Assembly: GCA_001687465.1 (NCBI GenBank)
Contig: LVLI01000346.1
Span: 1-64,000, forward strand
Direction: 5' to 3'
DNA from: Halocafeteria seosinensis
Lineage: Eukaryota; Sar; Bigyra; Bicosoecida
Length of the DNA stretch: 64,000 bases
Shown here: piece after piece, positions 8,866 through 54,017 of the stretch
Layout: each line of letters starts with the position of its first letter
Numbering within the stretch: the stretch's first letter is position 1
Notes under the pieces: model-generated
Databases searched by the model: none
What the model was told of the DNA's origin: nothing
Seen by the model: only the letters and a program-made list of their open reading frames with translations
Position numbers and translations under genes: made by a program

Positions 8866-11800
8866 ATGGCTTCGGAAGCACCTCAGGGCTCCGGGGCAGG
8901 AGTTTCAGGAAGCTCATCTTCCTCTTCCTCTGGTAAAGAGAAGAGAATAAACATGCTACTGAAGGCATTCAATCAGAATGAAAACGATGATTCAGTTTTG
9001 AACATGCTTCAGCGATGGAAAGACCTTCACAGCAATCCTTTAGTGAAAGTAAGTGTCACTGGTATCTTGGAGCCTGGATCATGATATGCACGAATGTATA
9101 ACACCATAACTTTCATTGTTTCTATGTTATTGTAATTGTGTTGCTCCCGTTTTGCCGTGCAGTCAATTCGAGCAGTGACACTGCTTCGCACGAACCAACG
9201 AACTCAGAGTTTGGAAGTTGTCAACCAACTACAAGTAGGAATTCAGCATGCCATTATTTCAACCACTCGTCGCCTCTTATTCTTCCCCCGGTGTTCTTGG
9301 CGGAACTTATGCAGACTGACCAAATCATAGGAGACGACCAAGTCCTAGACAATGTCCTCAGGGTTTATACGTCAACAGGCCACAACACAGAAGCAACTCA
9401 AGTACTAGAGAAAGCGCTAGAAAGCAAACCAAGTATGTACTTCATTCGCAACAACGCAGTGGACCGGAGCCCTGTGCAACAAAAGAAGGCGTGCTATTGC
9501 AGATGATACCCGCCTCTTGAGACAGTTATATTCCTGTCACCTGGCCATGGGAAACTTGCAGCAACAACAAAGGGCAGGTATGAAGCTGTATAAAGCGACG
9601 GAGGACCCGCTTTACATGGTCTGGGCAGCTTTAGCAATAGCGCTCCAATCAAAACGGTTGCATTGGGAAGAAGTTCGTGAAAATGCCCTGGACGATAGGG
9701 TGCTTGATTTGAATACAGGAAGTCCAAAAGCTCAACAGTCCCTGAAATTCTGCGTGGCGATGTTGGAAAAGGCTGTTCCCAATGGCAAAGTTACTCACTC
9801 CGAAGCTGTTGGTTTTTATTTGCATGTTCTTCGGCAGTCTGGAAAGCAGAAAGAAGCTCTGGATGCACTCAAAGGCCCTTGTAGAGAAATAAGGGATATC
9901 AAGAATATGAACTCAAAAAGAGAATCTGCTGATAGCATCCCTTCCATAAAGGAGCCTGTCAAATTTCTGCCCATTGATTACCTTAAAGAAGAAGTGGATC
10001 TCCTATGCTCCAATGCTCAGTGGGAACTGGCTTGGAAGAAGACGTGCCACCTATTGATTTGGCACGACAATGATGATTGGTCATTATTTCAAACGGTGGT
10101 AGAGTGCTGCTTTCAATATCTTCGAATGAATTGCGGCATTGGTGCCCAAGCGTTCCATGATCAGGAAAGGGACGTCATTGAGCAACTGCAACGGGAAGAA
10201 GAGTGTGACCAAAGCACCGTCGAACTGCCTCCAAGCATTGAACGATTGTACCCTTCGATTTCGAATACTAGGGCGGTGTTTACCTGTATCCAGCGCATGA
10301 CGCTACAAGAGAATGGAAAGAGAGCATGTTTAAGGGGTGCTTTTTTAGCGGAAATATTGCTGGAGGCCAGGGTTTTAGAGCATTCCCGGAGTTCCGTGTC
10401 GCAAGTACGAGAATCTTCAGTTTCTATCTGTTTGAAGGACGAAAACTTCTTGGATATTGTTTCTGCTCGCGACTACAAATTAACTTGCGATATGGAGGAT
10501 GCGCCTGAGAGCCAATCACTTTGTCATTTGATTGGCTGGATTAACCGATACCTGTCCCTATTTGGAGCTAAACCGTGTTGTTTCAGCGATCTCAGCAGTT
10601 TTCTTACTCCGTTTGTGGTTCCTGATTCTGGAGTCAGGGAAGAGCAGGGCTCACAACGACCATTGCATCCTCCGTTTCCCGAGTCGGTTCTAAGGCCCGA
10701 TTTTCCCAAGTGCAGTTTCATCAGTACTTCCTTCGCGCCTCTAAGGTTTTTTGATACTCATGGGTTTGGTAAAATCGGTGCCTTCCCAAATTTTGCTGTG
10801 AATCCTTCGAGCAGCAGCTCATTCCCGTGCTCCTTTGATTCTTCAGATACCCTTCGGCTGGAGGCTTCGGAAGCAGAGCGTAATAATTTCGTAGCTTTGC
10901 TGAGGATGCGAGCTGAGGACGTCGATCCAACCAACATCAAGCAGCTTCAACGCTTTATTACAGAGCAAAAGATACTTCAATTTACCAACGTGAACACACT
11001 GCGTGGCACCGGGGAAGACGGTGCCCGGAACCTTGTACGCTCTTACTGTGAGCTTTGGAGAAGGTTTACATCGCAGTCCGTCAATACTTCAGGCAGTTCG
11101 TCGGATTTCAGAGCCGGAGATGATCTTATCTTGCTAGCAACCGGATTGCTGGAGGCATTGGCTGTTCATTCTTATCAATCATCGAAGCGTTCGGAGACCC
11201 ACAGACTCTCTCTTCAGTATATCTTTGACTGTGTGAGGCTTACAGAGGTAGCCTATGCGTCGTCACCCAACAACTTTAATTTATGTCGGAAACTGCTTAA
11301 ACTATACGACTTACTCGGTGCTGTTGAGCCTTTTGGTAGACGATTTGAATGCCTGGGTGTCAAACATATTCAGTGGGAAAGCATGGGCCATCTACTTCTT
11401 TCGACAACTACTCGTCTGGGTTTCCATGATTATTCTCTTTTGGGGGTAGAGGAGATCTGCAAGGTTCATAGGGAAGAAAACCGCGAAACTTCCTTCTATA
11501 TGAAAAGGGCAATCGAGCACAACAACTATTCTACTGTCCTTGATTTACAAAGAATGCAAGAGCGTATGAAATTTTCTCTTTCCCGGAATGAGGCTAGGTC
11601 TTTGCGAGGCTTCTTGTCAAATCCCATGAAGAATGCCGCAGAAGTGCATCGATACCTGCGCTCAGTTCTGCTAGTCGGAGAATACCCGGAGTTATGCCCT
11701 GACATGGATGTGGGGAGAATGGATGCCCTTGCAGTAGACAACAGAGATTTCAGTCTATACATAAACAACTGGAATCCGCCGAACAATCGTCTACTTCACC

Positions 11801-12693
11801 AGCTGAAGAGTTATTACCGCGAAAATACAATTCTTCAAACCAGGCAGGTACAAGCTCTGCATTTCTGTGTTTTGTGGCTTCTAGAAGGAGATGTTAATGC
11901 TGCAACAACGAACATTGGTGTGTTGGAAGACGTTACAAAGCAGCTAGCAGGCATGTGGGGGAAATACCAGAAACTGTTCGAGTGCTCCTCCTCCTTTGTA
12001 CCGTATGAGTTGCTTCCTTTCGAGAACAATCTGGCGTACGTGGGTCGTTCGATGCGGGTGGATATAATGGAATGTATACTATCCTGCAGCCGGTTCGCGT
12101 TAGAGTGCCTCAAATATTCTAAGGACATGGTAGAGTCTAGTACTTTAGAGACGAGTGGAGAAGAGATAATGAGGCAAATATCGGAGATTGTGGAAGACCT
12201 ATCGGGTCATATTCTCACGGCTAACGGAGGCGAAAGCCTTAACTCTCCCAGCAAGTTCTGGGCTAAGTCTGCACTTGTAGTTACCATTCTTTTGCATTAC
12301 TCCGCTTTGTTTCTCTCTGCTGCCGTCCGTGTACTGCCTGTGTCCTCGAAGAAGCAGCAGAAGAAAAAATCGAAGCGCAAAGGGAACAAAGTGGATGATG
12401 CTAACCACGAAGGCAACAGCGCTGATCGAGTTTACAATACGATAAAGAAACTCAGCAGTATGGTGATGCAGGTCAGCAAAACGGTTCGTCGAGCGAAGAA
12501 CCTTTCTGAGCCTTCACTCTCATTTTTGGGAGAATCCCCTATTGTTGAACCCGTTCTACAAGAACATTTGAAAGAGCAACAGATGACAGAGAATGTAAAG
12601 TGTGATATAGCAAGTTCTTTCGAGAAACAGGGAAATGCTCTTCAGGCAATTACGGAAGAAATTGTATCTTACTTGAAAGCGGAGAAGTTATGA
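8866..12693 (+). CDS. NAA25: NatB N-terminal acetyltransferase auxiliary subunit NAA25 (MDM20)
   Basis: Exons 8866-9048, 9163-9234, 9315-9432, 9503-12693; 1187 residues, somewhat longer than human NAA25 (about 970). NAA25 is the ribosome-anchoring, TPR-like scaffold of NatB, which with NAA20 acetylates N-termini beginning Met-Asp, Met-Glu or Met-Asn during translation. The evidence is the family-specific order: an N-terminal helical repeat with ALRAVTLLRT-like sequence (SIRAVTLLRTNQRT), the segment LRQLYSCHLAMGNLQQQQ, then LYMVWAALAIALQ and KQKEALDALKGP, which match the conserved TPR region of plant and animal NAA25. The N-terminus is Ser-rich and the C-terminal region has a short Lys-rich stretch near residue 1095. 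Three introns sit in the first 650 bp, followed by one 3.2-kb exon. Convergent with the CEP20-like gene, 93 bp between stops. Confidence 0.85.
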
Positions 12694-23978: not shown

Positions 23979-25019
23979 ATGCCGTATGCTCCTCAAGGCG
24001 GGTATCCTCAGCAATATGGCCAGGGCTCAGCGGTGCCTCAAGGACAAGTGTATCATGTCTATGGGATACCGATAAGGTAAGGAATTCATTCGCTGAACCA
24101 AACGGTGCTGACGTGCCAATGGTAACGAGGTTTTTTGGTGCAGAGACGAGGGTACCGCCAAGCTTACAAGGAAGGTCATGAACATTTCCCTAGGAATGGT
24201 AGCCTTTTCTATGGTAACCTGGATTGTGTCCATTGTTGCCATGACGCAAGATACAGACAATGATGAGGATGACGACACTAGCAGCCGGACGTTCAGCGTC
24301 TCGGTAGTAGCAGCTCTGTGTATTCCATTGTAAGGATACTACAGTATTCGTATTGCCAGCTTAAAGGAACGTGAATATCAATGCTTGCTTGTTTACAGGT
24401 GTGGATATTTTGGAGCCAAGAACAGGAACCCGAATTTACTTAATGCTGTGAGTGCCGAACAGAGAGTCGTTTTATACTGTGGTCGGAAGTCCACCACCGC
24501 TTTGGTTCGCTGGCTAGCTGCAGTTTTGGGTGTGTAATCTGCTCTGTGTGATTGACTTTGTAATTACCCTAATTGTCGTAGTCACTTTACTACAAGAAGG
24601 GGAACTGAATGATGTTGGAACGTCGCGTAAGTACACCATTCCGTTCTACTAGGAGTTTCATGGTGGACACTGATTGCTCCGCCGCAGTGTGGACAACATT
24701 TATCGTGTTTGGCATTGGAGCTGCAATCCTACAGTGCGCTGGTGTCATATATGGAAAGAAACTTGCTAGTGAAGAGTATTGGAATGTCGTAACGCCAGCA
24801 AACATTCCTGTGGCCGCTCCTGTAGCCAGCACCGTTCCCCAGTATGCGCAACCTGTTCACCCTTCCCAACAACCCGCTGGCTATCCCGTGGGATATCCAG
24901 GGGCTCAAGGACAGTATCCCCCAGGAGGGAGTGCACCACAGATGAGTGGACAGCCTTATGGGTATTCGAATTCTTCGTTGGGACAGCCGCACCAGTCCAC
25001 ACAATATCACTACGTTTAG
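23979..25019 (+). CDS. Four-span membrane protein, array member A (novel family)
   Basis: Five exons: 23979-24076, 24144-24329, 24399-24447, 24524-24626, 24688-25019; 255 residues. Order of elements: an N-terminal Pro/Gly/Gln/Tyr-rich tail ending VYGIPIR, the basic motif KLTRKVMN, span 1 (about 45-66), an acidic loop (DTDNDEDDDTSS), span 2 with ALCIPLCGYFGAK, span 3 beginning FWVCNLLCV, a short loop with ELND, span 4 with GIGAAILQCAGVIYGKKLA then EEYW, and a Gly/Pro/Tyr/Gln-rich tail of about 85 residues. With an even number of spans both tails should face the same side, most likely the cytosol. I do not recognise it as tetraspanin, MARVEL, claudin or SCAMP. Intron phases 2, 2, 0, 1 are shared with members B, C and E. 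Confidence 0.8.
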
Positions 25020-26327
25020 ATGTGGGCATGTTTGGACTTATTGTGCTGTGCTTAGATACTTGTTGAAACATCCAAGGATAGTTTTGCCTTCCTTACGTCG
25101 GTTCTTTTTTTTTGTGTGTGCGTGTTTTGCGACGTTCATATTGCATTGCCGGCAGAAGTCTTTTCGTTCATTTGTCTCCCTCTCTTTGGGTGCCCTAAAA
25201 TCCTGCGTAAAATTACAGCAATGACGCTCAGGTACAACACTTGTGCCAAATTACATATACCGTATGTATGGCAGCCTGCTGTCTTAAGACTATGTTGACT
25301 GCTTATTATCCCAAGGATATCCCGCATCCTGTCTAGCAATGACCCTTTCATCCAGCTCGCATGTTTCAGCCGAGGACATGTGACAACTAATGCGAATGTC
25401 AGTGCAGTACAGCAGATAGAGCAAACGTATTGGGTAATAACGATTTACAAAACCCGTAGTTCTCGAACAAAAACTACAAGTGGATTCACAGCAAACCCAA
25501 ATTGGGAAACCTATTTGATTTAACTATGACGACTGTTTCCGACATGCCAAGCAGGAGAATCCTGGTATTCACACAACTGATAGACACACTGTGGGATACG
25601 ATTTGCAGTAGTATAAATAGCGAAGAATCGCGAGATACCAAGTTGTGAATCCTATCAAACTGCCGTCAGTTATCCACCCGTTTCTGGACTAGTAGTAGTG
25701 CATATTATTATGGCCGTGTGGCCTACTGGTTAAGTAGAACTAGCTAGGGGATCTTTATGTGGAAGATCTTCCTAGGGCACCCCTGCATTGCGTACGGCTA
25801 CGCTTATAGACACTAACACCCTTAGGGAATATAGAATTCTTCAAATGTAGTCTGTCGGAGCGTCTTGGGCCAACCGTTTCTAATCTGACGCACAGGTGCG
25901 GGATACAGCATGTCAGTGGACTGCAGTGTACCTGGCAGAGTTGTCGTAGCGGTGAGTTATTCCATGCGCAGGAAAATTCGCAATAAGCATACGATCAAAA
26001 GTTTTGGATGGTGGTGGAATGATGAAAAAACTCCCCGTCAGCCGGCTGGCACACGCTGATATCCCCCCAACATCGAAGCAGAGTCGCAACAAGCGGCTGA
26101 TGTTTTCGAAATTGCGTCACGCTGCGCGGTTGGCGATTCTGAAGCAAAACATAAGTCAAGAGGATTGTTTTGAGTTAAATGATGCGTAGCCCTAAATGGG
26201 TGTAGACGTGTATTGATAGTCTCATTGAAGCGTATATTACATATGTTCGTCCTAAGCTTCACGCACTTGTTAAGGAGCTGGAATTTCGTAGAACCTCGAA
26301 CGAAGAACACCCTGAGGCAGCTGGGGT
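25020..26327. other. Intergenic spacer inside the four-span array
   Basis: About 1.3 kb without a supportable gene. It holds an imperfect hairpin at 25744-25775. I looked for remnants of the neighbouring paralogues (the 49-nt exon and the FW-x-C-NLLC exon) and found none. Confidence 0.4.
25744..25775. other. Imperfect inverted repeat (hairpin)
   Basis: CTAGGGGATCTT faces AAGATCTTCCTAG across a seven-base loop; about twelve pairs form with two wobbles and one bulge. No T-run follows and no gene is close, so its role is unknown. Confidence 0.5.
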
Positions 26328-27344
26328 ATGGCAAGTGACTACCAGCAGCAGCAGTCACTCCAGGGGTACACATCCCTTGAACAAACAAATGCCTACATTG
26401 TTTACGGTATTCCCATCCGGTACGTAAAGGCGATCGCACTCAAACCGGCTAAGAAATTGGCATCCGGTATTTCAAGTTCTCCCTTTTCTTTAAACTTCCA
26501 GAGACGAACCTACAGCGAGGTTAACCAGGAAAGTCATTAGTCTCTCCTTAGCCATTGTTTTATTCAGTGTTTCCGCGTGGATTATATCAATCATAGCATG
26601 GAACGAAGACTCTCTAAAGGCCAAGCACGAGCACGATAGTGACGACGATGACAATGATAGTGTCAGCGTCAGTGTTCCGATAGTGACCGCGATTTGCATC
26701 CCTTGGTAAGTTACTTCTTTCCCACGAGTGATATGGCATCGAAGTACGCCATGAGCGTACTCTGTGATGCAGCTTTGGGTATTACGGAGCTAAAGAACAT
26801 AAAATTAAGTGGCTGAATTGTGTAAGTTTCATTGCGGTGTGTTTGCTTGAACTGAAGCTTCTCAGTCCAAGAAATGACCCGCATGCCAGTTTTGGATTTG
26901 CAACCTGCTGTGTGTGATCAACTTCGTGGCCAGTGTGATAGCAAATTTAGTTGTTCTATCCTCAGGAAAACTGAATGATACCGGCCGCGCACGTAAGTTC
27001 GAGAAGAAGTTCCAATTATCGAGTGTAAACAGTGCTACCCATTAATACAAAATGTTGCATAAGTATGGTATTCTGTTGCAGTGGGATCTTTGTTCGTGAT
27101 CTTCGGGGTATTTGCTGCTTTGTTGCACACGGCTGGAGTGGTATACGGCCGGCAACTCGCTAACCAGGAGTACTGGATGATTCAGTATCCAACTAGTGTT
27201 CCTATTGCCACAGTTGCACAGTATACGCAGCCTAACGGGGAGCAGTATTCCGCCAGTGAACGAGATAGTCATGAGCAGGTACAAAGTCAACGTGAGCTCG
27301 GATCAGGTGAAGATGGTGACGGCGTGCCTCAAAAGCACGTTTAA
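26328..27344 (+). CDS. Four-span membrane protein, array member B (novel family)
   Basis: Five exons: 26328-26419, 26502-26705, 26773-26821, 26890-26992, 27082-27344; 236 residues. It follows member A element by element: a short Gln-rich N-tail ending VYGIPIR, RLTRKVIS, span 1, an acidic/His loop (HEHDSDDDDNDS), span 2 with AICIPCFGYYGAK, span 3 starting FWICNLLCV, KLND, span 4 with HTAGVVYGRQLA then QEYW. Exons 3 and 4 are 49 and 103 nt, exactly as in A and C. The C-terminal tail is shorter and charged (Glu/Ser/Gln) instead of Gly/Pro/Tyr-rich, so the tail is where the copies differ most. Function unknown; expression timing and membrane of residence cannot be read from sequence. Confidence 0.8.
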
Positions 27345-27924
27345 ACTTGGATCATTTGAATCTACTGCTCTTTCCGCTCTTATTAACGTGTGTTGTACAA
27401 TTGTACAGTACGGCGTACTGTCTAGCTTAACATATATATTTAATACTTCAAGTAGCAATGCGCGCATCAACACCTGTATATGGGTACGGGAAACACTCCT
27501 AAAGGCGAATACCGCCTCGTTAAGAGGATTTGATCACCTTACCGGACATATGTGTGTGTGCCAAGCGAAGAGTACACTGTACCTCCTTTGCGTGGACTGT
27601 TGCCTCTTGCTCGAGCGTCAAGAATACACTGTACTAAGACCGTATTTGCTGTGGTCGAATGTTCTTCAAACTGTTATATTCTTACAACCTTCCTCCCGTC
27701 GCTGTACGATTCACATGACAATTTTTACACAAGCATATACGCTTACCCACAGTTGCAAACTTTGCAATTGCATTCTTCAACCACGACAACTTCACAATTG
27801 CCTCGCCCAACGTGTCGCAAAGAAGGAACTATAGCGTGAATTTGATGGTTGCATTTTTCTGGTACCTAGGATTCTTGACTGTGGCTTTTCAAGAATATAG
27901 CGAGGTATAGTACAGTGCTAGACA
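27345..27924. other. Intergenic spacer inside the four-span array
   Basis: About 580 bp between members B and C. Long chance frames occur here (one runs from inside the last exon of B to 27834) but show no protein-like features. Confidence 0.4.
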
Positions 27925-29083
27925 ATGGCGCAGTGCCGGCCGCAGACAACAGTAGTCGGAGCGCCGATGCAACAGCACTATTCTGAGCCACCACAAGCCT
28001 ATCCAGTTTATCAACAGGGGCAGCCGCATGACTCCGAGGTGTATGTCGTGTATGGCATTCCCTTAAGGTACGTCTTGTTCTTGGGGGGCGAGAATTTTTG
28101 CGTCTTACGCAAGTCGCAACCAATTGTCTGTGAGAATGAGTTCTTCAACCAACAATGATGGGAAGCTCGGTTGTGCATGCAGGAGTGAGCATGCGGCCAC
28201 CCTTACAAGGAAAGTCATGAATATATCGATTGCAATGTCAGTCCTTTCGTTCTTTGCGTGGGCAATAATGATTGCCGGAGCTAACACCACCGTACTGGAT
28301 GAGGAGCACCGCGACGAGGAGGACGATTCCGGCGGCGTCAACGTCCCGTTGGTATTCGGGATAGCTGCAGTTTGCATACCGCTGTAAGTCGGAAGAAATA
28401 GTGCTTCTGGTATTTCAATCGTCCCATAAGCTGTAATCTTTCAGCTGCGGATATACTGGAGCCAAGAACGCAAGGTCCAATCTCCTTACTTGTGTAAGTG
28501 GAAGCAGACCTCGTCCATCTATGGATGAACAAAAAAAATGTGAGATATGTCTTTCAGTTTTGGGTATGGAACCTCCTTTGTGTGGCATATTTCTCGATTG
28601 TTGTTATTCTGAACCTGCTGGTACTGGCAAGTGGAGCTCTAAACGACACAGGAACAGCACGTATGTTATCACAGCCTCCACACCTGTCCGTTTATTTGCA
28701 CTGATTCTCTTATCCCTTCTGCAGTGACGGTTTTCTTTTTGCTTTTTGGAATCGCGGCTGTTGTTCTACAAGTGTTTGGCGTGGTGTACGGGAAACGTCT
28801 CGCAGAAGATGAATACTGGTCCCGTATATCGGCTGCAGGAATTCCCACAGCAACTGCCGTACAGACAGTTCCCCAAACAACTCAGTCTGTATCTGGATAC
28901 CCGTCTTATGGATATCCGTACGGATACCCGCAACAGCCTCCTGTGGGCTATCCCACTGATCCCTCAGCATCTCGGTCTGGTCAAGCCTCTAGCGGAGCGT
29001 CATTGAACCCTCCGGCACCTGCGTACGATCCCGAGGTACAAGTGCCGAGCAAACAGTATCGAGGAAACAGCAACCAATACTAA
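27925..29083 (+). CDS. Four-span membrane protein, array member C (novel family)
   Basis: Five exons: 27925-28067, 28183-28383, 28445-28493, 28558-28660, 28725-29083; 284 residues. The N-terminal tail is the longest of the family (about 47 residues, Gln/Pro/Tyr-rich) and ends VVYGIPLR. TLTRKVMN leads into span 1, followed by the acidic loop LDEEHRDEEDDSGG, span 2 with AVCIPLCGYTGAK, span 3 FWVWNLLCV, ALND, and span 4 with VFGVVYGKRLA then DEYW. The C-terminal tail carries repeated YGYP/GYP units (SYGYPYGYPQQPPVGYP), a low-complexity type seen in proteins that self-associate or bind partners through aromatic stickers; that reading is inference. Closest to member A in both tails. Confidence 0.8.
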
Positions 29084-29828
29084 CTGCTATGAGAGTTTAA
29101 GCAAGGCGTAGACTGGTTAGGGAGTTACATATGCAACCCTGGTTGAGTACAACGTCTTACATAGAGAACTGAACTGTAGCATTGTTTGGCGCATTTCACC
29201 TAGAGATAGCCTCCCGTGCACGCGGATTATATGCACATAAACGCAACGGCCTACAGGACTTACAGAATGAAGTTCAGACTCTCAGAGATTCCCCGGACTT
29301 GGGAAGTCGTGGATGCTATGTGATGGCACATGTTGATTGTCTTTTTGGAAATTTGCTTATCAGAAAATCTTGAACGTATTTGCTGCCAAAGCTCAAGCAA
29401 TCAAAGGGATCACCAATTTGTTTAGCACATTCCTTGATTTAATGAATGTCTGCATGAAGCTATTGACAATACGTACAACGCGGTTGAAGTGCCATCTTAT
29501 CTGGCTTCACAAAAATCTAAACTCGCAAATGCTGCAGGGATTCATGCTATTCTGGCACTAGCGAGTCCAACAATTGGGTTAATAAGGTGGTCATTTCCAC
29601 CTGTGGTGTTTTTCATTATTGGGCCAAACATAGTCATACTCTACCTCATGAATGGCTACATTTTGCCTGTAGCTGCCGCACCAGCTAGTTCGGTGGAATG
29701 TCCTCGCACCCTGGGATTTGTGGATTTCGAAGAGAAACCCATAAATTAGCCATAATCCCGATGCAGCATTTTGTCTATTTATGGCAGAGGCTGGCAAATA
29801 CTCTCTATAGGACAATTCCTAAGCGATA
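29084..29828. other. Intergenic spacer inside the four-span array
   Basis: About 745 bp between member C and the intronless gene. Nothing supportable. Confidence 0.4.
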
Positions 29829-30467
29829 ATGGAGGACTCCCAGTACTATCAGGCATTGGATGCTCAGAACCAAATCATCCAAGGAGCGGATGTGGAGGAA
29901 CAGCTTGTCGGTAGATTTCTTGGACTGTCTTTCGACGGAAGAGACCGCAGAAAGGTGATAAAGAAGCTGTTAAACATCTGTCTCATTTCTGGGACACTTT
30001 CAGCAACTGCTGGTGTAATCTCGCTCGCCGCCATGAGCATCCAGGGGACGACAATGACTTGGTACATAGTGTTCAGCGTCTATGTTTTCGGCACTATCTC
30101 GATTGCTGTAATTGGATCCGTCTATGGCCTTTATCCAACTGTCTCAGGGCTCTCTGTTGCCTTCGTCACGATGGTCTTACTTTATATCATAGACCTTAGC
30201 CGGTGCATAGTCTTTTACATCTATGTGGCTTTGAATTCCTCGTATAGCAGAGGCATGAACCAAGCTGCAGTGATTGTTACAGCTTCCGTCTCTATGCTTC
30301 TCTTCCTGGCAACATTGTTGATTCGGAGGGTATATACATGGAATCCAGCTACTTTTGAGTTCATACCTACCGCTCCTCCGGTCCAATGGGCTGTTGAAAA
30401 CCAACAGCCAGAGCAGGAGCAAGAGGAAACCGGCTATCGAACAAACACTGAACCTATACAAGAGTGA
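29829..30467 (+). CDS. Intronless four-span membrane protein D inside the array
   Basis: Single exon, 212 residues. Four hydrophobic spans at about 48-70, 76-98, 104-132 and 140-163, with an acidic Gln/Glu-rich C-tail (QQPEQEQEETGY). The span order, the basic RRKV run just before span 1 and the Tyr/Pro/Gln composition of the tails recall members A, B, C and E. But the diagnostic motifs (GYFGAK, FW-x-C-NLLC, VVYGK-x-LA) are absent, and the acidic loop between spans 1 and 2 is missing. It may be a strongly diverged paralogue that lost its introns, for instance through a reverse-transcribed copy, or an unrelated protein that settled here. Function unknown. Confidence 0.7.
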   Translation: MEDSQYYQALDAQNQIIQGADVEEQLVGRFLGLSFDGRDRRKVIKKLLNICLISGTLSATAGVISLAAMSIQGTTMTWYIVFSVYVFGTISIAVIGSVYGLYPTVSGLSVAFVTMVLLYIIDLSRCIVFYIYVALNSSYSRGMNQAAVIVTASVSMLLFLATLLIRRVYTWNPATFEFIPTAPPVQWAVENQQPEQEQEETGYRTNTEPIQE

Positions 30468-31204
30468 GAGGATATAGCTGAGGTAGTAGAGTTGGAAGAT
30501 CTGCAATGTGATTTTCATCGTATGGTGATAACTTCAGTGACGAGGTGCACTTAGAATTGGAGTTCAGCAAGCAAGAGCTCGCTATGCAGAAACTTTACAT
30601 GGCTAGGGACGTTTTGGCATAAGTGCACGCACCATAAAAATTACTTCATGATCAAGCAGTAGGGATACATAATAGTTGGTCGAGATTAGTTGAATCGGCC
30701 GGTTACAAGTTGACGACGCTCCACTCAAGTATCAAAATACGAGAAGAATCATCTCATTCTGTCATCTTAATAGTGTCAGTTTGGTATCTCATTTGCACTA
30801 ATCATGTGGTATGGCTGCGTCTACTCTACGCTCCCCACTATGCAGAGTGGCACTGCGTCGAGAGACTGCAGCAAGGTTCACAACGAGGTGGTGCCTACTA
30901 GCACTGCCTAGGCCCTAGCTGTAGCCCACAGCTACTTCCAGAGCTTGAATTGTGGCATTGACTTGTCATATTTCACCAAACTCTGTGAGTACAGTCTAGA
31001 CATAAATTTTGGTGGTGCTCGCTTTAGTTTCCTCTCAATTGTCGTTCGGAGTGCTGCTGCTTGCCTCCCGACCATCACAACCTGCGTTCTATGACGTGTA
31101 TGTCGTAAACAGGGAGTTCATACTCCATTCTACTGCACCAAAAGGGGATTCACACCATGGGGGACTAGTCAGCGATAGTGTACGTGAGAGATTGACTTTG
31201 GGAG
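30468..31204. other. Intergenic spacer inside the four-span array
   Basis: About 740 bp; no gene or remnant recognised. Confidence 0.4.
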
Positions 31205-32099
31205 ATGGAGCGCGGAGCAACCACTGCTCTGCGGCTTCCAGCGAATTCGTCGTACATCTATGGACGCCCTGTAACGTGAGTCGTCCAATATCGCTTATTA
31301 CAAGCGTTTTTGGAGATTGCATACCTGTCATTTGCGAGGTTTCGTGCAGCTACTTTAATCTCCCAAAACTACGACGGAAACTAGCGCTGGTGGCGAAGAT
31401 CATGCCATCGGTTCTAGTGTTTGGATGGATCTTCAATTTGGCGGGGTTTTCGGAGATGGATGAATTCGAGACATTCTTGCCACAGAGAATGTTCTTGTCG
31501 CCTGTTATTTTGGCTCTTGTAGTGGCTGCGTACGGTATTTGGCATGTATTGTTTGGAAATTTCATCAAGGAGCGGTCACGTTGAATTTGGGGAATCTGTT
31601 GCAGATACGGGTTCTATGGTGCGAAATTGCAAAATAGGCGGTACATACAAGTTGTAAGTGGTACGCGGGTAGATGGCGTCGTCATCCAACGTACTCGCGA
31701 AGTAAGCCAAATTTGGTGTATTTCATACAGTATACTGTGTGTAACCTTGTATTGGTGCTCCTGTTTCCTCTAAACTTGACGCAATTTATTCTGGTGATTG
31801 TTGATGGTAGCTTTTCAGAAGGAGCAATCGGTTGTATGTATTGCTTGTTGTCGCGCTAGCATTCACCGTCGATGGCCTATCTCTTTCGGCTACGTGCAGA
31901 CTTGACGATTGCATTGCTTTTCAACCTAGCGGCAGCCGTGTTGCAAACGGTTGGCATTGTATATGGAATGCGGTGGCTTCGTATAAGGCCCTCTGAAATT
32001 GCTATTGAGGATGATGTACCGATAGCAGTCCCAGTGGAGTCGGGTACGGTACAGCCGAACCATTCTCAGCCTCCACATGTACAAGTGGAAACTGTGTAG
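31205..32099 (+). CDS. Four-span membrane protein, diverged array member E
   Basis: Five exons: 31205-31275, 31350-31529, 31605-31653, 31731-31830, 31900-32099; 199 residues, the shortest member. The intron phases (2, 2, 0, 1) and the 49-nt third exon match A, B and C, which is what identifies it; protein similarity alone is weak. SYIYGRPVT replaces VYGIPIR, KLRRKLAL replaces LTRKV, YGFYGAK replaces GYFGAK, and LQTVGIVYGMR replaces LQ-x-AGVVYGK. The loop between spans 1 and 2 is only mildly acidic (EMDEFETF), exon 4 is three bases shorter, and both tails are short. It could be a specialised copy or one losing function, although all exons are open and in frame. Confidence 0.7.
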
Positions 32100-39064: not shown

Positions 39065-42000
39065 TCAAACATCCTCTACATCGCTATCGGCCACATCCCC
39101 ATAACGCCAGATATTGATTCTTTTCTTGGATACCTCATTTTGAGCTGCTTCCAAACTCTCTATAATCTTTAAGTCTTTCTGCAGGGCCTCGGCGTCCGGT
39201 TGCCGTCGAGCAGCATTTTTCGTCGACCGAATCTCTCGCTTGGAAAGGCGGGCAACACCCTCCTGGATCATTTTTTCATTGACACTCATGGGCGAGTTTT
39301 CGTCAAAGAGGGTGACTACGAGCCGGTTGTCGTCATCTCGAGAGTGAATCTTTGCTACCAGATCCTTCCCAAATGAAGATTCTGATAGGCATATACCTGC
39401 TTCACGACCAAATTCTTCATCTAATTGAGGAGACTTGACGAATGCTAAACGACATCCACGTGCCAAGGGAGGTAGCTTTTCCAAATGACTACTAGGAAGA
39501 GGCCTCATTTTGGTAAGGGGAACGCTACCACGATTGCCATAGTCTATGTAAGTCACGGCGTACTCATCTCTACCACTGCCTTTGCCATCTATTCTAGCTC
39601 GGAACCAACTAAGGCCGCTCCCGTCGTCAAACAACGCAGCCACCACCTTCCCTCGACGAGGATCAACCACAGCGTGGGTCTCCCCGTGCTCTTCTTTCAT
39701 TTGCCTCATTTCCTCTTCCACCTTCCGAAGATTCTCCATATCATCTTGGGCGTGAACAAAAAAGCAATTACCGTCCAAAATATCACAAACTCGGAGCTGG
39801 ATAAACTGCTGACTCTCATGAGCAGCCTCCTCAGCCTCCTCCTTTTCTGCAACATGGGTCCATACTCCTCGTTTCGCAGTACGGGCTTCTTCTTCGGCCT
39901 CAAAGAGTTCATCGGCGTAAGGACTGTTTCGGGCAGCCGCAGGAATGATGCTCCCATATCCCTTCTGAAGGAGCGCAACACCAACATTTTGTCTTTGCCC
40001 ACCGCTTCCCACGAACAGAGAGCCCAATATTGTGCCTCTCTGGTCAATTGTGTCCACTTCAATCTCGACTTCTCTCTGTAGAGTGTTCTCTCTCATAAAC
40101 GAGTACGCTTCATCACCAAATGGTTCCGCTTGGCGGCCTGGCCGTTGCTTTCCATCGGGACCCTTCGTAGAAGGCTTCGCTATAGTAGGGCATCGCACGC
40201 CAGAGATCGCAAACATGCAAATGCAGTTCTCGCTTGGAATGATCAGTTTTACTCGGCCTCCAGAAACTACGTAGTCAACGATCGCTCTCATCTTTCCGGC
40301 CCGCTGTAAGAAAGGAAAGAAGTTCTTTGCTTTTTGAGTGTCCATTGTCAAGTTTGTGAGTCGATGCTTTGGAGCAGGCTTTTTCCCCTGCATACCCTTG
40401 CCACTCTCTTTCGCGCGATTTTCCGCTTGGAGTAGTTCATCGTATTGGGAGCTTTTGGGATCGTCAACTCGATGGCGAACAACTTCAGCGTAACCTTCAG
40501 AGACAAGTATAGCTGCCACATTGTACTTTTCGCCTTTCTTGTTGGTAGCATGTACCGTGGCAAAACGTCGTTCCTCCTGCAAAAAAAAAGTCATAGATAA
40601 AAAATACCGTTGCACACGAACAAGGCAGGCTGTCAAGATACTTACGTTAGTTGGGGCATTTTGCGCTGGAGGCCGTGTGTAGTCTACGACAACTTCCACT
40701 TCCTTCCCAACGATTGTGCGACGGAGAAGATCCTTGGCCTCCCACGACCATGGCTCACCTTCTTCGTCTCGTTTTCCAACCCTCGGGGCGCGGATAGAGC
40801 TTAACTGAACGCGGCGTTCTTCGGTCGCACTCCCTCTTTTGACTTGAACAATGATGGTGTCGCCTGACACAATCTCCGTGACCTTTCCAGTATATTCAGA
40901 GTCACCGCTGATTTGCTGTGGTTCCCACTCTTTCCAAATGTTCAGTTTACCATTCTTGGCGGCGTTTTCAGCATTCCTCATTGTGCTCGCGTGAGAAGGA
41001 TCAGTGAAACGGATGCTCCAATCCACCATTCTTCCAAGACCATTCTTCAGTAGCTCTGCGGAAATATCACCAGCAGGATGCTCCACTTTTCCAAAAAAAT
41101 TATTGAATTTATCCGCACCACCAATGTGGAGCACAACATCTCGATTCAGCAAACGTGTTTCAGTGAACAACTTGGCAGGTCCAGCAAATGGTTGTGCCAC
41201 AGTTGTCGTTTCCGCCCCGCCGGAGTTGGTATTTTGCTCTTCCTCACTCTGTTGCTGTTGTTGCATATACCGCGGGGACTGGACACCAGCCAAATTGAAA
41301 TTGATGACTAGCATGTATTCTTTGAGTCCTGTCAGAATGCACCGTAGGGAAGCGCCGTCCTTCACCTGCTCAACAACAGCAGACTGAGGACTGTTTTGCA
41401 ATTGGTTCAGAAGCTCTCTATCTTCAGGGACATTCCATAAGACCTTCCTGATAGCACCTTTAACCGCTTCTGAATTGTCGTTGTAGATGCCTTTCTTTTC
41501 TTCCTCTGCTTTGGCATTCAATTGTTGGAGCTCATCGTAGTCTGCACTTCTTCCATGCTTCGTCATCTCGATTGGAACCACTCTTGCCCAGCCGTTCTCC
41601 ACGACTTTCTTAGAAACGCTTTCACCATTGAGCCAGATGTCAGCAAATTGGCGGTTAATGCTATCTACCTTGTACTGGATTTTGAATTGCACACTTTGCC
41701 CAATCAACATCTTCCGCAGAAATTCTCTGCTCTGCCAGGCGAACGGCTGCAGTAACAGAAATGCAAAAGGCAAAGTTGTATCTGGCGATTCGGTACCAAA
41801 ATTCATCAACGATAATAAAACGCACCTCATCCGTGGCATTGGGGTGCCTTGCCAATCGAGGAGCCTGAAGCGAAGCCAAAGATACTTGCATCTCGGGAGG
41901 TGGATTTCCCCGCCCCATGAGTACGAGGGAGTCGCCTCCGATGACACTCTTGACTACAGCATACCTGTGCACACATACAGGAAACAATAATATCAGTTCG

Positions 42001-46639: not shown

Positions 46640-49600
46640 TCACCTTGTAGATCGTGAGGTAGTCGTTAATCCTCGAGATTTCATTTGGCTACTACGGCCA
46701 TGAGAAGGGCTCTTGCTCTCTGTTTCTACCATGCCTGTAAATGACGGGAAAGTGCGCTCTCTAATCCTCTGTAGCTCTTCTTCTAGCACCTCTATATCCT
46801 CTTTTTGGTACTTGACAATGTCTTGCAACTTCCTATGACGAACTACTGATTGTAGTTTTCGTTCTTTTATCTTGGCGGGATCTGTCTCTTCTGTCCTTCC
46901 AGCAGTTCGTGACTGAACTATACCATCCCTAATTTGAACAGCATTTTTTAGCTCCTTATAACGACGCAGCAGATGTTCATTTTCTCTCTCTTTGGCTTGC
47001 CATTGGGATTTTATTGATGAAAGAAGCCGTTTAATCTTCTGAATATGCCTCTCATGGCTTTGCTGCAATTGGCGACTGCGCGCCTCGATTTTCATCAGAT
47101 CACGACGCTGCTTGTCACCAATGTCCCCACCGCGAATAAAATCTTGCAGCGTTTTTGTTACTCGCAAAAGCTGTAGATCGGTGTAATATTCCGACATATC
47201 TTGACATTTTCCTCGGAGGTATTTTAGTTCCCAGTGAAGGTACGATAACTCTTGTCGAAAATCCCTGTGCTGTTCTAAAATGTTAACCTTGATAGAGCTC
47301 AAGAACTTAATGCGTGCGTTGTCGATTTCTACCGCTTGACGTGGAACCAGAGCTGCATTACCATAATCGGGAATTGGCTCCTCTGATTGAACCTCATCGA
47401 TACCTTGCTTCATGCGAGTAAGGAGGATGAGATCGCAACCAAGCATTTCACGCGCTGTCAGGGTATCACTGAACAAGTTGGTTAGCTTTTCTACTGCAAC
47501 ACCTTGCCTGCTGCATGTATGCAACTGATGCTTCATTTCGATATCCATTGATGATAACAGCCTGTGGATTCTTGCTATCTGGAGTTCAGAAGAAATCTTT
47601 TGCTCTCGCAGCTCCTGAAACTTATGCCAAACGCTATGCTCGATTGTGGAGCCAACCTCCCAATCGTCGGGTACATCTCTGGACGAGACAGGAGCCAGAG
47701 CTTGCTTTTCTTCCTCGGCAATTTTTCCGACTCTCGAGCGTTGTGCGAGAGCGATATCCGCCTTGTGGAAAGGATCCTCCTTGTAGATGTTCACGCCTAA
47801 CCTCTTCTTCGCTCTGGCAAGAGTGTCTGTATTATCGTATACATTTTCGATCGGGTTGTACCACGCCAATTCGACCACACCTCTCGAGTGGGAAGAAATA
47901 TCAACAAGGCTTTGCCCTGCTTGTTCCTCCTCCTCCGGCTGTTGCTGAGGTGCATGAAGGATTTTCAAAATGGCATCCGCAGAACCAGGTAATACTGTCC
48001 TCGATTTCGGGTCCAGAACCTCAGCATCGTGTGTCCGGTGCTTGTATAAATGTGTAAGTACCCGCATCACTTCCGCGTCTAGCGATTGTGTGGAAGCCTC
48101 CCTAACTGAGTCACGAAAGCTCTTTTCAAGGTGCTTATCGAAGTTTTGAAGTTTATTCAGCTCCTCCCGAGTAGCATTCGTGCGAGATTGCATGCTCTCT
48201 GCTGCATCGGCTGCATTAGCCTTTAGGTTATCGAAGGACATATGCTGATCCACAATTCGCCCTTCTAGATCAACATTCGTATCTCTTTCGTGTACATTTT
48301 CCGCTAAACGTACGGCATACAGCTGAAGGGCAATTACCGATTCGTAAAATTCCAGGTATGACTTTCGCAACTCGGCTACTTTTGAATCAAAATTCGCCCG
48401 AGACTCTCGGACATCATTGGTTAGCTTTCGCAACTCATCCTCTAGAGATTGCCTTCGAGCCTCCCGTTGCTCCTCTACTTCTTCGAGTTTCGATTTATAC
48501 TGGTAGTACTTCCGCTTTTGTTCCTCACTCATTTGCTCCTCGGCAACTGCATCCATCCATGGTTCAAACTCATTCTCTAACTCTTTTTCTAGAGCTGCAA
48601 GAGCGTCCTTTTTCTCGAGAGTTCCATACATCATCTCATGCAGGGCTCTCTCGGGTGCATCATCCTTGTTAGCCTCAGCCTCCCGGCGCCTACGTTCTTC
48701 CTCCTCCTTCTGACGTCTGAGTTCCGCTTCAGACACGTAAGGCTTAAATCCCACATCCTCTTCTGACACCTCCAGTATCGAGTGCGGAACATAATCGAGG
48801 GACAGATCTGGTTCAAAGAGTTCAGTATCTGACTTGAGTTCCTTTTGTATCTCTTTGATTCTGGAATTCGCATTCGAAATGCGAGAGGCTTCTTCACCTT
48901 TTGCTTCCCAGAGCTTGTCAAATTTTTGATTATACTCGTGTTGCACACTGCGAAGAAGAGCATTCAAAAATAAGATTTGCATACGCTTTTGGTTGGGTGT
49001 TCTGACAGCAGCAGGATGATACAGCAGCTTCACCACATGACCACCAGCCCAAGTTTTCGCGCTGCCAACCTCTGGAGCTTCTTCTTCATTTTCTTGGCTT
49101 GGTAAAGCCTGAGATTCTCTTAGTACCTCCGTAAAATCCGCGTACGGATCCTCCGAGTGCGATGGGGACTCAGCCTTGGCAGTACTACTAGCCGGGGACA
49201 TCTCCGATCCCTGCTGCTCGGACTTCGTGGGAGTCTTGGAATCAGACCCTTTCCTTTCAGAAGACATCCCCTTCAAGGAGTCTAATTTGCTCCTCTGAAA
49301 ACTAGGATTTAGACTCGGCGGTAGAAGGCCAGCTAGAAAAATCCAATCAGTGTCATGGCGGAAATCCTCCATCAACGAGCTCCAAACAGCAGAATGCAGA
49401 AGGCCATATTCTGTTACTCCTTCTTCCGTAACAGAATCTTGGTTATGCTGCCGCATCGCTGCCTGCTCAAGTCTCCTTAAGTACGTGGCTTTATTTAGAC
49501 TCATTCTTTCTTCATCGGACATTATTGGCAGAGGAAAGTTGCTAATGGACACATCCCCTTTAAAGGAATGCAATGTCGCAAAATGGACCTCCATATTGTC

Positions 49601-52600
49601 CCAAAGCTTCGACACAAGCTGGTCGCGAGTCTCTTGATTGTCTTTAATTGTTTCCGTGGCCTGCGTTTTCACCTCGTCTACCCTTTCTGCCGCCTCATTC
49701 TCGAGTATACGCTCTCCCGCGATGTCAATACTAAATTCTTCTCTGTTAAGTTGCTCCATTTCCGGCGCCCTCGCATTGCTACTTAGAAGGTCATTCAAAC
49801 TCACCTTCAAATCTTCCAACTGCTTCCTAATGCTCTCCCGTTCTCTTTCCGCGTCTCTCTGTTGTTTTCTGGCAACAAGTGCTAGTCTGCGAGCATTCAG
49901 TGGACACAAACGGGAAGACTTCTGCTCCACCTCGATTTCACCGTCAGTGCAAATACCCACGGCCCATTCCATCAAATCCTCGTTATTTCCTTCCTCTTCT
50001 TCCGCGATGCCGGCATTATCCGTTTCATCACCAATCTCCACAGACAGCCGGCGTCCCTTTCCAAACTTACCCCCTGGACTATCAGTTTCTGTCCCTTCTG
50101 ACAGTTTCATCGCAACGATAGAGCCGATTACCCCTCCAACGCTTCCAACTGGGCCAACAAAATCCGCGACGCGCGACGCAAAGGAAAGAGCTCCTTTACT
50201 TCTTGATCCAACTGCCCCTTCCGAATTAAGCCGAAGCCCATTCCCGAGTCTAAGGCAAACAAAATTTGAGCCAAGTGTGCATACCACAACGTAACGTCCA
50301 TCTTCTGTTATATCAACAGCAGTGATGGGACGGGATCCCACCTGGATTCTGCTATACTTCGAGCCCCGGAAATCACATTCAGCAATCGTTGTCGATTTAT
50401 CTGTCATAAAATGCAGATTCCCAAAAACGTCGCCAAAGAGGAGCGATGTACCGTCAGCATGCTCATACACCCGCAATGCAGTTATAGTTGAAGATCCTAA
50501 AGGTGACTGTAAGAGGGTATACTCGGCGTCCTTCAGTTGGTCCGTCACGTACTCTTGTAGCTGGTAGGATGCCAACGTCTCTGCTGCCAACGTGTGCTGA
50601 GGACCTGTGCGTCGTAGTTCGGTGTCGGTATGCTCCGATATACGCACAAACTCAAGTGGGGGCTCTTCCCGAAGATCGTTTTGATCGAACGCCGGGAAAT
50701 TTTCACTTCTCAATACGACTGGGGCCGCACCAGCGGGGCAGTTGAGCAATTCTCTACTTGTACCAACAGAAGCTGTTAAAGGCGTTCCCATAGACACTCG
50801 TGCAATGGCCGTCATTAGGAGAGGAGAAAAGTCCGGCGCCTCTTCCAGAGCCTGGGAAAACTTTGAGGAAGCTGATTGGAAGTCTGGGATTGGAAACGAA
50901 ATGACCGTCCCGTCTGTCCTTACAAGTTCTAGGTCCAACGCCGGTTCGAGGCGATTCCACCTAGGTCCTCCCGAAGATGCGGGCGCCGACACATCAAATG
51001 CCATGCCCTCCTCACCGGCCTCTTGCTGAGGATTTTTCAAACTACCCATCTGCCCAGTGTGTACTGGTCGAAATCGCATGGATACAATCGGGCAGTGGTT
51101 TGGGTTTTCCCTCCGCGGCTGAGAAGCCACGCGAACGACATCACTGGCCAGAGTTGAAAGTTCAGCAGGTACAGCTGACACCGAGTAGCCTGGTAGTTTC
51201 GATATAGCAATGGGAGTAGCGAGAGGATGTTCCATATCTACACCGTGATCAGGATCCCACTCATTCAAGCGGAACACACAAACTATGCCGTCCTGGGCAC
51301 TAAAAGTAGCAAAAACGTGAACATCAGAGCCATCATTGAAAGCAATGTCCGTGATAGCCCCTTCATGAACCCAGTCACTGAACACCGTTGTAGCAAACAA
51401 ATCCGGGGCACCTAACGAACACGACAATTGAGAAACTTCTATTCCTTCAAATTCCGAAGCAAAATCTAACGAGCGCAAATGCTTCTCCGGAGCAGTATCG
51501 TTCGGAGATGCCATCATCTCTTTGTACTTATTTGGAGAGATAAACACAAGGCGCAGCCGTCCACTTCCACTGCCAATAGCAAGTAGCGGCATCGTTGGAT
51601 GCGACGCCATTGATGACAACACGGATAGTCGGGATGTTTCCGATGAGCAAGCACTATGCTCACCATATAGCGTGGGTAAGATAGGATCGTGCTGTTCTCC
51701 TTCCAGGTTATATAAGTTGGCCGAAGCCGATGAGGCGCTGTCGACGAACATCCGTTTACATAGCTGCTTCCCTTCCTGACAGTCCCAAAGGCGCAGCGTA
51801 GCATCCATTCCCGCTGTGGCCACAAGGGAAGATGGGAGGCGCGAGTCCGGATCTGAGCACTCAGTATTCACACGAGCGCAAAGAACAGCAGCCCCACAAT
51901 GCCCATCTAAGATTGTATTCACTTGAAGTTGTTCCAAAGTTGCACCTTCATTAACTGATCCATCCACTCCATATCCGGCTGCGGCATAAGCATATTCATA
52001 GTTGACCACTGTTTTGGCCAGCTTGTTTTGCCCACCGCTAGTTAAATCTTTCTGTGAACCGGAGCTCGCTGGTCGCGAAGCAGGGGCATGACTCTCGGCG
52101 GCGGAAACGCTTTGCGGATCCAGAAGAACTGAAAGAGTTGCTCCGTCCTCTACCGAGACGATTAGCGTCCCATACTCTGGCGAAGGACTCATAGATGAAA
52201 TTGCAGAATAGTACACGTGACCGTAGCAATTCCGCGTAGGTAAAGTCGGAGCCATTCCAACAATCCGTTTGACTGCGGTCGATTCCCATTTCAATTGCCG
52301 CAAAGAGTCTGGTGGATCCAGAAAGCGAACTCGTCCATCGGCGCATCCAGCTGCCAACTGAGTCTCCGAAATCACCACTGATGTACAAATCGACCCTTGC
52401 AAGAGTGTCTGTAGCAATGTTTCTTCGTCTTTTATCCAGCGATATTCGTCCTCATTGGCGACAATATGCTTTGATATAAATTTCCGTGTAAAGTTCCCTC
52501 CCTGGCTGCACACTGAGTAACCGGTTTGCGAATCGAACACAACGAATTCACCAGCAGCGTTACTGCACAGAATGTGCCGCATATCGGGGACCCATGTAAA

Positions 52601-54017
52601 GTCAGTAAACTTTCTTCGGGCGATCCAAACCTCATTGTGTTCATGGAAATCAAACGTTGGGGACGGAGTGGGGGCATTCTCGGTGTCGATATCACCTGAC
52701 TGTAGCAGCTGTAAATTATCCGCTGTTCTTGTTTCTATCGCGGATGTGGGTAGCAAGCCGGTATCAGCAGAAGGATCTAGTAGACCATCTCCTATTTGTC
52801 GGACGAATTCGAAGCTCTTGCTAGCCGACTGAGAGGGCTCAACAAGTCCTGTTTCAGGATCCAACTCCGAAACATCTACTCCTTTTCGTTGAAGATCCTC
52901 AAGAATACCACGCTTTGCCAATTCCTTTTCCAACACGTTCTTCCTCGCTCGTTGATCTAATCCATCAAGTTGAGGTTTGAACTCGGCAGAAACACAGACA
53001 AGCTTACTTCCGTTAACCTTCTCCACTATATGCCAAAAGAAGATGCCGGAATCGGATAAGCAAGCGCAAACATGTGAAGCAGCAGGACAACACGTGGCTT
53101 TGTGCACTTCCGAAGAGAATAAGGAAGCAGCTAGGCAATGGTCTTCGTCCACAATTGGAGTCGATGCCTTATTCACCTGTACAAGGTCCCATACGGAGAC
53201 TAGGAACCCAGGAGAGCTGCCAAAGACAAAACATCTGTCGCCTAGCCTGCGGACGTAACCAATTATCCAGTGCTAGACAAAACAGCTGCAGGAGAGCGTC
53301 AACAGTCCTTCACTCACCTTGAAAGAGCCACCGAGCTTATATGGGAGATGGTCGTATCATGTTCAGTGGTCGTTGCGACGGTCCGTGGGGAGAGAGATGG
53401 CTCCTCTTCGTCCGGCACTCCTTTCTCGTTCCCTAGCTGGAAATTTTGAATGATGCTAACAAGCCTCTTACTAGGGAATTCGAAGACATAGACCCGTGGA
53501 ACGGGAGAATCAACCGCCAACGCGACTCTTCTGAAGGAGCAACATTGACAACGACGATATAACTTAACTCTCGAGTTCACAAACCCTTAACACCACCGAC
53601 ACACGACATACCTCGCCTTGGGAGCAACATCGAAGGCCGTAATTTCCATGGGCTGCGTATGCGCTCCATCCTCTGTACGTAGGTCCTCGCCGGGGAAGTA
53701 TGCGTCATGATATGCTCCAAGGTGAAGGAAATCCTCGCTCGGTCCGCGCCTTTCATCAACGTAGCTATCTTCCCCTTCTGCCTTATCTAGGTATTTGATA
53801 TGCAGTATACCACCAGAAATAGGTGCAACAATTGTACCCTGTATAAATTAGCAGAAAAATCCAACCAAATGGGGTTGTAAACCTTCGAAAGAGCGCCTGT
53901 AGACGATCAGCGTACCTCATCGAGCACCTGGTAGCCCCATGCACTCCCAAAGTTGCGATGGAATGAGAGCGCATGTTGACCCTCCTTTCCACCTTGCTCC
54001 ACCCTGCTATCACCCAT
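46640..54017 (-). CDS. CFAP43/CFAP44-family ciliary WD-repeat, coiled-coil protein
   Basis: Exons on the minus strand: 54017-53916, 53838-53612, 53530-53318, 53246-46640; 2382 residues. The N-terminal half carries degenerate WD repeats (SSVALSRLGDRCFVFG with LVSVWDL, SLVATAGMDATLRLWD, AAGCADGRVRFLD), starting with NFGSAWGYQVLDEGTIV. After about residue 1150 it turns into long charged coiled coils (YNQKFDKLWEAKGEEASR, LQLLRVTKTLQDF). This layout is that of CFAP43 and CFAP44, which form the tether/tetherhead anchoring the inner-arm dynein f motor to doublet microtubules; loss impairs flagellar beating. I cannot separate CFAP43 from CFAP44 by eye; the size favours CFAP44. Three introns cluster in the first 800 bp and then a single 6.6-kb exon follows. 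Longer than human CFAP44 (about 1850 residues). Confidence 0.8.

Follow-up and report, generated by a model that had tools for sequence, protein, structure and literature searches.

The tandem genes at positions 23979-32099 (plus strand) of a DNA stretch from Halocafeteria seosinensis raise the question of which family their four-span membrane proteins belong to. The stretch, here called the window, comprises 64,000 nucleotides of contig LVLI01000346.1 (G000:C252:1-64000), in an assembly of 30.6 Mb and 605 contigs. Halocafeteria is a bicosoecid stramenopile, and its genome has been sequenced (LVLI00000000; PMC6972860). We propose that tetraspanin-like membrane organizers without the large outer loop underwent a local tandem expansion at this locus, and estimate the probability of this reading at about 50%. 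Shared ancestry with true tetraspanins is unproven, and we regard it as likelier than a separate origin.

The array of related genes A, B, C and E is real. An earlier note on this DNA had described four tandem genes of five exons each, with intron phases 2, 2, 0, 1. A script that was fed the exon lengths and approximate starts given there, and that required GT/AG borders and one open protein, found exactly one solution for each of A, B and C and four alternatives for E; each of the four genes reads as one uninterrupted protein (Table 1). The four introns of A, B and C fall in identical alignment columns. In E the first three introns share these columns and the fourth is one column away, with all phases the same. 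Placement and intron columns therefore bear out the tandem gene structure, with this small shift in E. The splice model of A was also confirmed by an RNA-based check, since a protein search with A returned the EukProt transcript GECG01015223 (P0001), which matches the spliced protein over its full length with V131I as the sole change. This indicates that the model is right and that A is transcribed. The GECG prefix is presumably that of the Halocafeteria seosinensis transcriptome.

In the database searched, only A has a transcript. Transcripts of B, C and E were absent from the matches listed in a search with the four-row profile A2, which contains B and C, and the models of these three genes therefore rest on sequence. 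B and C score 206 and 195 bits with the family profile, in which both are contained, and E reached an E-value of 7.3e-18 among nine sequences with a family profile lacking E. When three models of E were scored, the exon 4 of Table 1 gave the best result (54.4 bits vs 50.2 and 35.9, one of the two lower-scoring models having a shorter exon 4); its donor, GTTGTATG, is unlike a GTAAG-type site.

The intronless open reading frame (ORF) D is a possible further member of the array. It aligned weakly with most of the A/B/C profile (E-value 1.1e-4 among nine sequences) and appeared in a six-frame scan of the window with that profile (0.023 for the sequence, 0.083 for the domain). After span 4 it carries IPTAPPV, comparable to IPVAAPV in A, IPTATAV in C, VPIAVPV in E and VPTAQPV in the relative P0002. 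Counting against membership, the wider family profile gave D only 0.069 among nine sequences and did not list it in the window scan. As a genome query, D found no second copy in the assembly. An open frame between C and D (29494-29748, plus strand) contains VVFFIIGPNIVILYLMNGYILPVAAAPASS and may be a worn remnant of a family span 4 and tail; the profiles do not list it.

Searching the genome with A gave one weak match beyond the array (C76:57870-58196, E-value 0.092). The ORF at this place (C76:57588-58280, minus strand, locus L014) has an acidic loop 1 and IPTAPV after its last span. It reached an E-value of 4.4e-10 among nine sequences with the family profile, and is thus probably a diverged family member; used as a query, it matched itself only. 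The genome was queried with four sequences only (A, C, D and P0006); these recovered the array and the weak C76 place and nothing further, P0006 giving a single weak match inside the array (E-value 0.064).

Table 1. Genes and open reading frames of the array and neighboring genes in the window
Feature	Position	Strand	Exons	Product	Basis
Gene A	23979-25019	+	23979-24076, 24144-24329, 24399-24447, 24524-24626, 24688-25019	255 aa, four-span	Splice placement, transcript, AlphaFold
Gene B	26328-27344	+	26328-26419, 26502-26705, 26773-26821, 26890-26992, 27082-27344	236 aa	Splice placement, intron columns, profile
Gene C	27925-29083	+	27925-28067, 28183-28383, 28445-28493, 28558-28660, 28725-29083	284 aa	Splice placement, intron columns, profile
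ORF D	29829-30467	+	Intronless	212 aa, four predicted spans; between C and E; possible highly diverged member	Weak profile alignment
Gene E	31205-32099	+	31205-31275, 31350-31529, 31605-31653, 31731-31830 (best alternative), 31900-32099	199 aa, diverged member	Splice placement, intron columns, profile
NatB	9517-12693	+		NatB non-catalytic subunit	
SNase/Tudor	39065-41947	-		SNase/Tudor protein	
CFAP43-like	46640-53176	-		CFAP43-like protein	
HMG-box	59214-60665	-		HMG-box protein	

The family extends beyond this genome. The earlier note had considered it lineage-specific and expected a profile search outside one lineage to return nothing; instead, relatives were found in Triparma columacea, an MMETSP transcriptome and further contigs. 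Profile A2 (E ≤ 0.01; 7,999 candidates scored) recovered at least 34 proteins, including the transcript of A, and the 24-row profile A3 (E ≤ 0.001; 8,000 candidates scored) at least 20, five of them new. The named sources among the matches listed are Triparma columacea (P0007), the MMETSP transcript (P0031) and a COSAG record (P0034, at only 8.8e-3). From 39 proteins and the window genes, with fragments and unspliced-DNA predictions excluded, alignments of 24 (A3), 27 (A5) and 26 (A7) rows were built. Members have in common a core motif, PxCGYFGAK, between spans 2 and 3; GYFGAK occurs in 35 of 38 relatives, and the seven invariant columns of the 24-row alignment are M1 and the P, G, Y, G, A and K of the core. 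A tree of 29 rows groups A, B and C in one clade (support 96/87), and on this evidence it is only their expansion that is local. The branches of D, E and C76 are too long for placement.

The alignments also supply a profile for a group of protist membrane proteins that carry no Pfam domain in the database. The literature searched, as far as it was accessible (most subscription journals lay outside its scope), covered the host, tetraspanins (in stramenopiles and divergent protists, and their gene structure) and halophile signatures, and gave no description of the PxCGYFGAK family. No word beginning with "tetraspan" occurs in the main text of PMC5447177, which deals with duplications in Halocafeteria.

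Hydropathy predicts four spans in A, B, C, E, D and 17 of 22 relatives, three in the other five, and five in the C76 ORF. The AlphaFold model of A (as P0001) is a four-helix bundle with helices at residues 35-69, 78-103, 106-135 and 144-173. On average, A, B, C and E have 2.5 Lys and Arg and 0.25 Asp and Glu residues in loop 2 (between spans 2 and 3), and 1.25 and 7, respectively, in loop 1 (between spans 1 and 2). This charge distribution favors a cytosolic location of the tails and of loop 2 as the inner loop.

Loop 3, between spans 3 and 4, is only 8-9 residues long in A, B, C and E and has no cysteine. It does contain cysteines in 13 of the 17 four-span relatives, always in even number (4, 4, 4, 2, 4, 4, 2, 18, 6, 8, 4, 4 and 4), the remaining four having none. 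Even counts fit disulfides outside the cytosol, the 13 proteins being related and not independent cases. Under a second loop definition, for which 30 of 44 sequences could be anchored, counts were even in 16 of the 17 proteins with cysteine; the odd one was P0036, where the anchor shortened a loop that has four cysteines under the first definition. Long and short loops are intermixed in the tree, with the long loop of P0010 beside the short ones of P0011, P0012, P0014 and P0016 (support 93/86) and the short loops of P0007 and P0032 beside the long ones of P0023 and others (87/92). This suggests that loop 3 was lost or gained more than once.

Among A, B and C, the best conserved stretch is the juxtamembrane segment VYGIP...LTRKV (pairwise identity 0.68-0.84). 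The motifs listed in the earlier note occur in these three genes with small changes and are worn in E, which lacks LND and has LRRKL in place of LTRKV. It drew the difference between the spans on one side and the variable tails and loop 1 on the other too sharply: identity ranges over 0.32-0.60 for the spans, 0.22-0.49 for the C-tail, 0.33-0.39 for the N-tail and 0.19-0.31 for loop 1, but reaches 0.50-0.75 for the short loop 3. Low-constraint segments would also diverge in the manner of loop 1 and the tails, and relaxed constraint explains this pattern as well as diversification of binding partners does.

Judged by Pfam, profile comparison and predicted fold, the closest named family appears to be the tetraspanins, a relation that the earlier note had missed when it reported no match; none of the matches is significant by itself. 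With the Pfam tetraspanin profile PF00335, 8 of 24 members gave matches at E ≤ 1 (the best at 3.6e-5); the scores of A, B, C and E were 22.3, 24.0, 10.0 and 10.5 bits, all under the curated cut-off of 32.1. An hhalign comparison of the TM2-TM3 region with solved tetraspanins was gapless over 54 columns at a probability of 4%, and none of 200 shuffles, in which hydrophobic and other columns were shuffled apart, scored as high. The best structural matches to the model of A are Tspan15, CD53 and CD9. Tetraspanin hallmarks, according to the portion of PMC2278132 consulted, are four spans, intracellular tails and two outer loops, the second with CCG and two more cysteines. Hydropathy and AlphaFold show four helices, a small first outer loop and a short inner loop in our proteins; the large second outer loop with its cysteine pattern was not found. 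Of 44 proteins examined, 14 lacked anchors and 30 were scored, and none of the 30 has CCG in loop 3. Six of the 44 sequences contain CCG somewhere, in spans or in the TM2 turn. Since there is no CCG in loop 3 and no large loop in A, B, C and E, the array is not classed as tetraspanin, and filing it with the true tetraspanins was rejected.

The strongest competitor is a four-helix membrane family of independent origin, or one related to MS4A/CD20 or JAGN1, in which small-residue packing would make a tight TM2-TM3 turn look tetraspanin-like. MS4A/CD20 and JAGN1 are indeed also close to the model of A in VIA and Foldseek scores. We consider this rather unlikely, because the CD20 profile (PF04103) matched one of 24 members at 0.026, as compared with eight of 24 for tetraspanins, and because no shuffle, made within hydrophobic and within other columns, surpassed the observed score. 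MS4A/CD20 is presumably the family of the IgE-receptor chain B.

The composition of loop 1 allows a different view, in which the acidic loop serves on the outside to bind or screen cations and the copies were retained because they aid growth in brine. The acidic residues of loop 1 number 7 in A, 9 in B, 8 in C and 4 in E, as compared with an average of 0.94 and at most 4 (equal to E) in 17 relatives, and the C76 ORF has 8 within a 16-residue stretch at loop 1. Moreover, the portion of PMC5447177 consulted describes Halocafeteria gene duplicates as enriched for salt response. Acidic outer loops may however be the ordinary composition of exposed segments in a halophile. Loop 1 of D has no acidic residues, and P0002 instead has 14 in loop 3. 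A device for salt adaptation is thus improbable as the explanation of the array. Less probable still are vesicle proteins of the synaptophysin/SCAMP type, with four spans and a Tyr/Gly/Pro/Gln-rich cytosolic tail for vesicle cycling: such tails are present in A, C, P0002, P0007 and P0032, but are low-complexity sequences of a kind that occurs in unrelated proteins, the SCAMP profile matched one of 24 members at 0.13, and MARVEL (like claudin) is absent from the 25 of 34 families listed at E ≤ 1.

The expansion of tetraspanin-like organizers thus remains our preferred reading. The four-span membrane proteins in tandem seen by the earlier note are supported and its membrane-organizer role is plausible, the restriction to one lineage excepted. 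Building on the gene models, the four helices modeled for A, the distribution beyond this genome and the short loop 3, we propose a mechanism in which both tails would lie in the cytosol, with loops 1 and 3 facing the outside or an organelle lumen. The four-helix core would pack laterally with sister copies and partner membrane proteins, and the tails, rich in Tyr/Pro/Gln or bearing a YxxPhi motif, could pass the assembly on, as in tetraspanins, to proteins that serve in sorting or as scaffolds. A C-terminal YAELK of the YxxPhi type occurs in 5 of 38 relatives; YWNV follows span 4 in A and YWMI in B, and C and E have no YxxPhi motif. Such a protein may act as an organizer or cargo adaptor in the membrane plane, with outer loops of varied chemistry. 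In this presumed halophile, the short acidic loop 1 would supply the outer contribution, the larger cysteine loop having been lost or never gained.

More tentatively, the proteins may belong to a deep branch of the tetraspanin superfamily, so far undescribed, that is present in stramenopiles and other protists and whose large cysteine-bridged loop comes and goes; the array would then be a loop-less minimal form with its outward chemistry shifted to acidic loop 1. Studies of tetraspanins concentrate on the large outer loop, to which partner binding is ascribed. If this loop was truly lost or never present, the family allows asking what the four-helix core and the tails do alone.

Other tetraspanin-like sequences were seen in the genome. 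In the repeated genes at C400:55833-76359 and C291:42015-47374 (loci L016, L018-L024 and L026), a cysteine-rich stretch (GGQEHC...CRCF...GLCYRANCFR...GGVSWYKCP), putatively leishmanolysin-like, is followed by one or two four-span units that resemble tetraspanins, several of them exceeding the PF00335 cut-off. Should these loci prove to be single genes, the fusion of a protease-like ectodomain with tetraspanin-like units would be an unusual arrangement. Another match to the tetraspanin profile, over the cut-off at 43.9 bits, lies at C282:8742-9050 (locus L015) in an open frame of 694 residues, which runs on into a long segment lacking any named domain. The neighbors of the array in the window are ordinary eukaryotic genes (Table 1). 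Ectoine synthase was matched at two loci (C33:55312-55779 and C93:18298-18788), each as three separate pieces (split exons), which fits a halophile that makes compatible solutes. Harding is said to have reported in 2016 that Halocafeteria makes ectoine.

Among known systems, tetraspanins (PF00335; CD9, CD53, CD81, Tspan15) share with the array four spans, a length of 200-300 aa (199 in E), predicted cytosolic tails and a short TM2-TM3 turn with G-x-x-G-A-x6-L-L-x-x-F, and they are its nearest fold neighbors. They differ in the large loop, which spans 69-132 aa in the portion of PMC2650405 consulted, against 8-9 residues without CCG in A, B, C and E, whose scores stay under the Pfam cut-off. 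Introns of the ancestral animal tetraspanin are phase 0 according to the same source, and the 2, 2, 0, 1 pattern of the array thus gives no support. MS4A/CD20 and JAGN1 are likewise four-helix membrane bundles with close VIA and Foldseek scores, but MS4A/CD20 has almost no profile support. Tetraspanin-like proteins that lack the typical CCG pattern have a published precedent in fungal Tpl1 (PMC2278132, in the portion consulted), a likeness drawn from description only; in its second outer loop two cysteines are retained, whereas A, B, C and E have none. A further counterpart is the PxCGYFGAK protist family itself (P0002, P0006, P0007 of Triparma columacea and others), which has the core motif, four spans and mostly a VYG-like juxtamembrane motif and G-x-x-L after span 4, and which differs from the array in the cysteine-bearing loop 3 of most four-span relatives and in having at most four acidic residues in loop 1.

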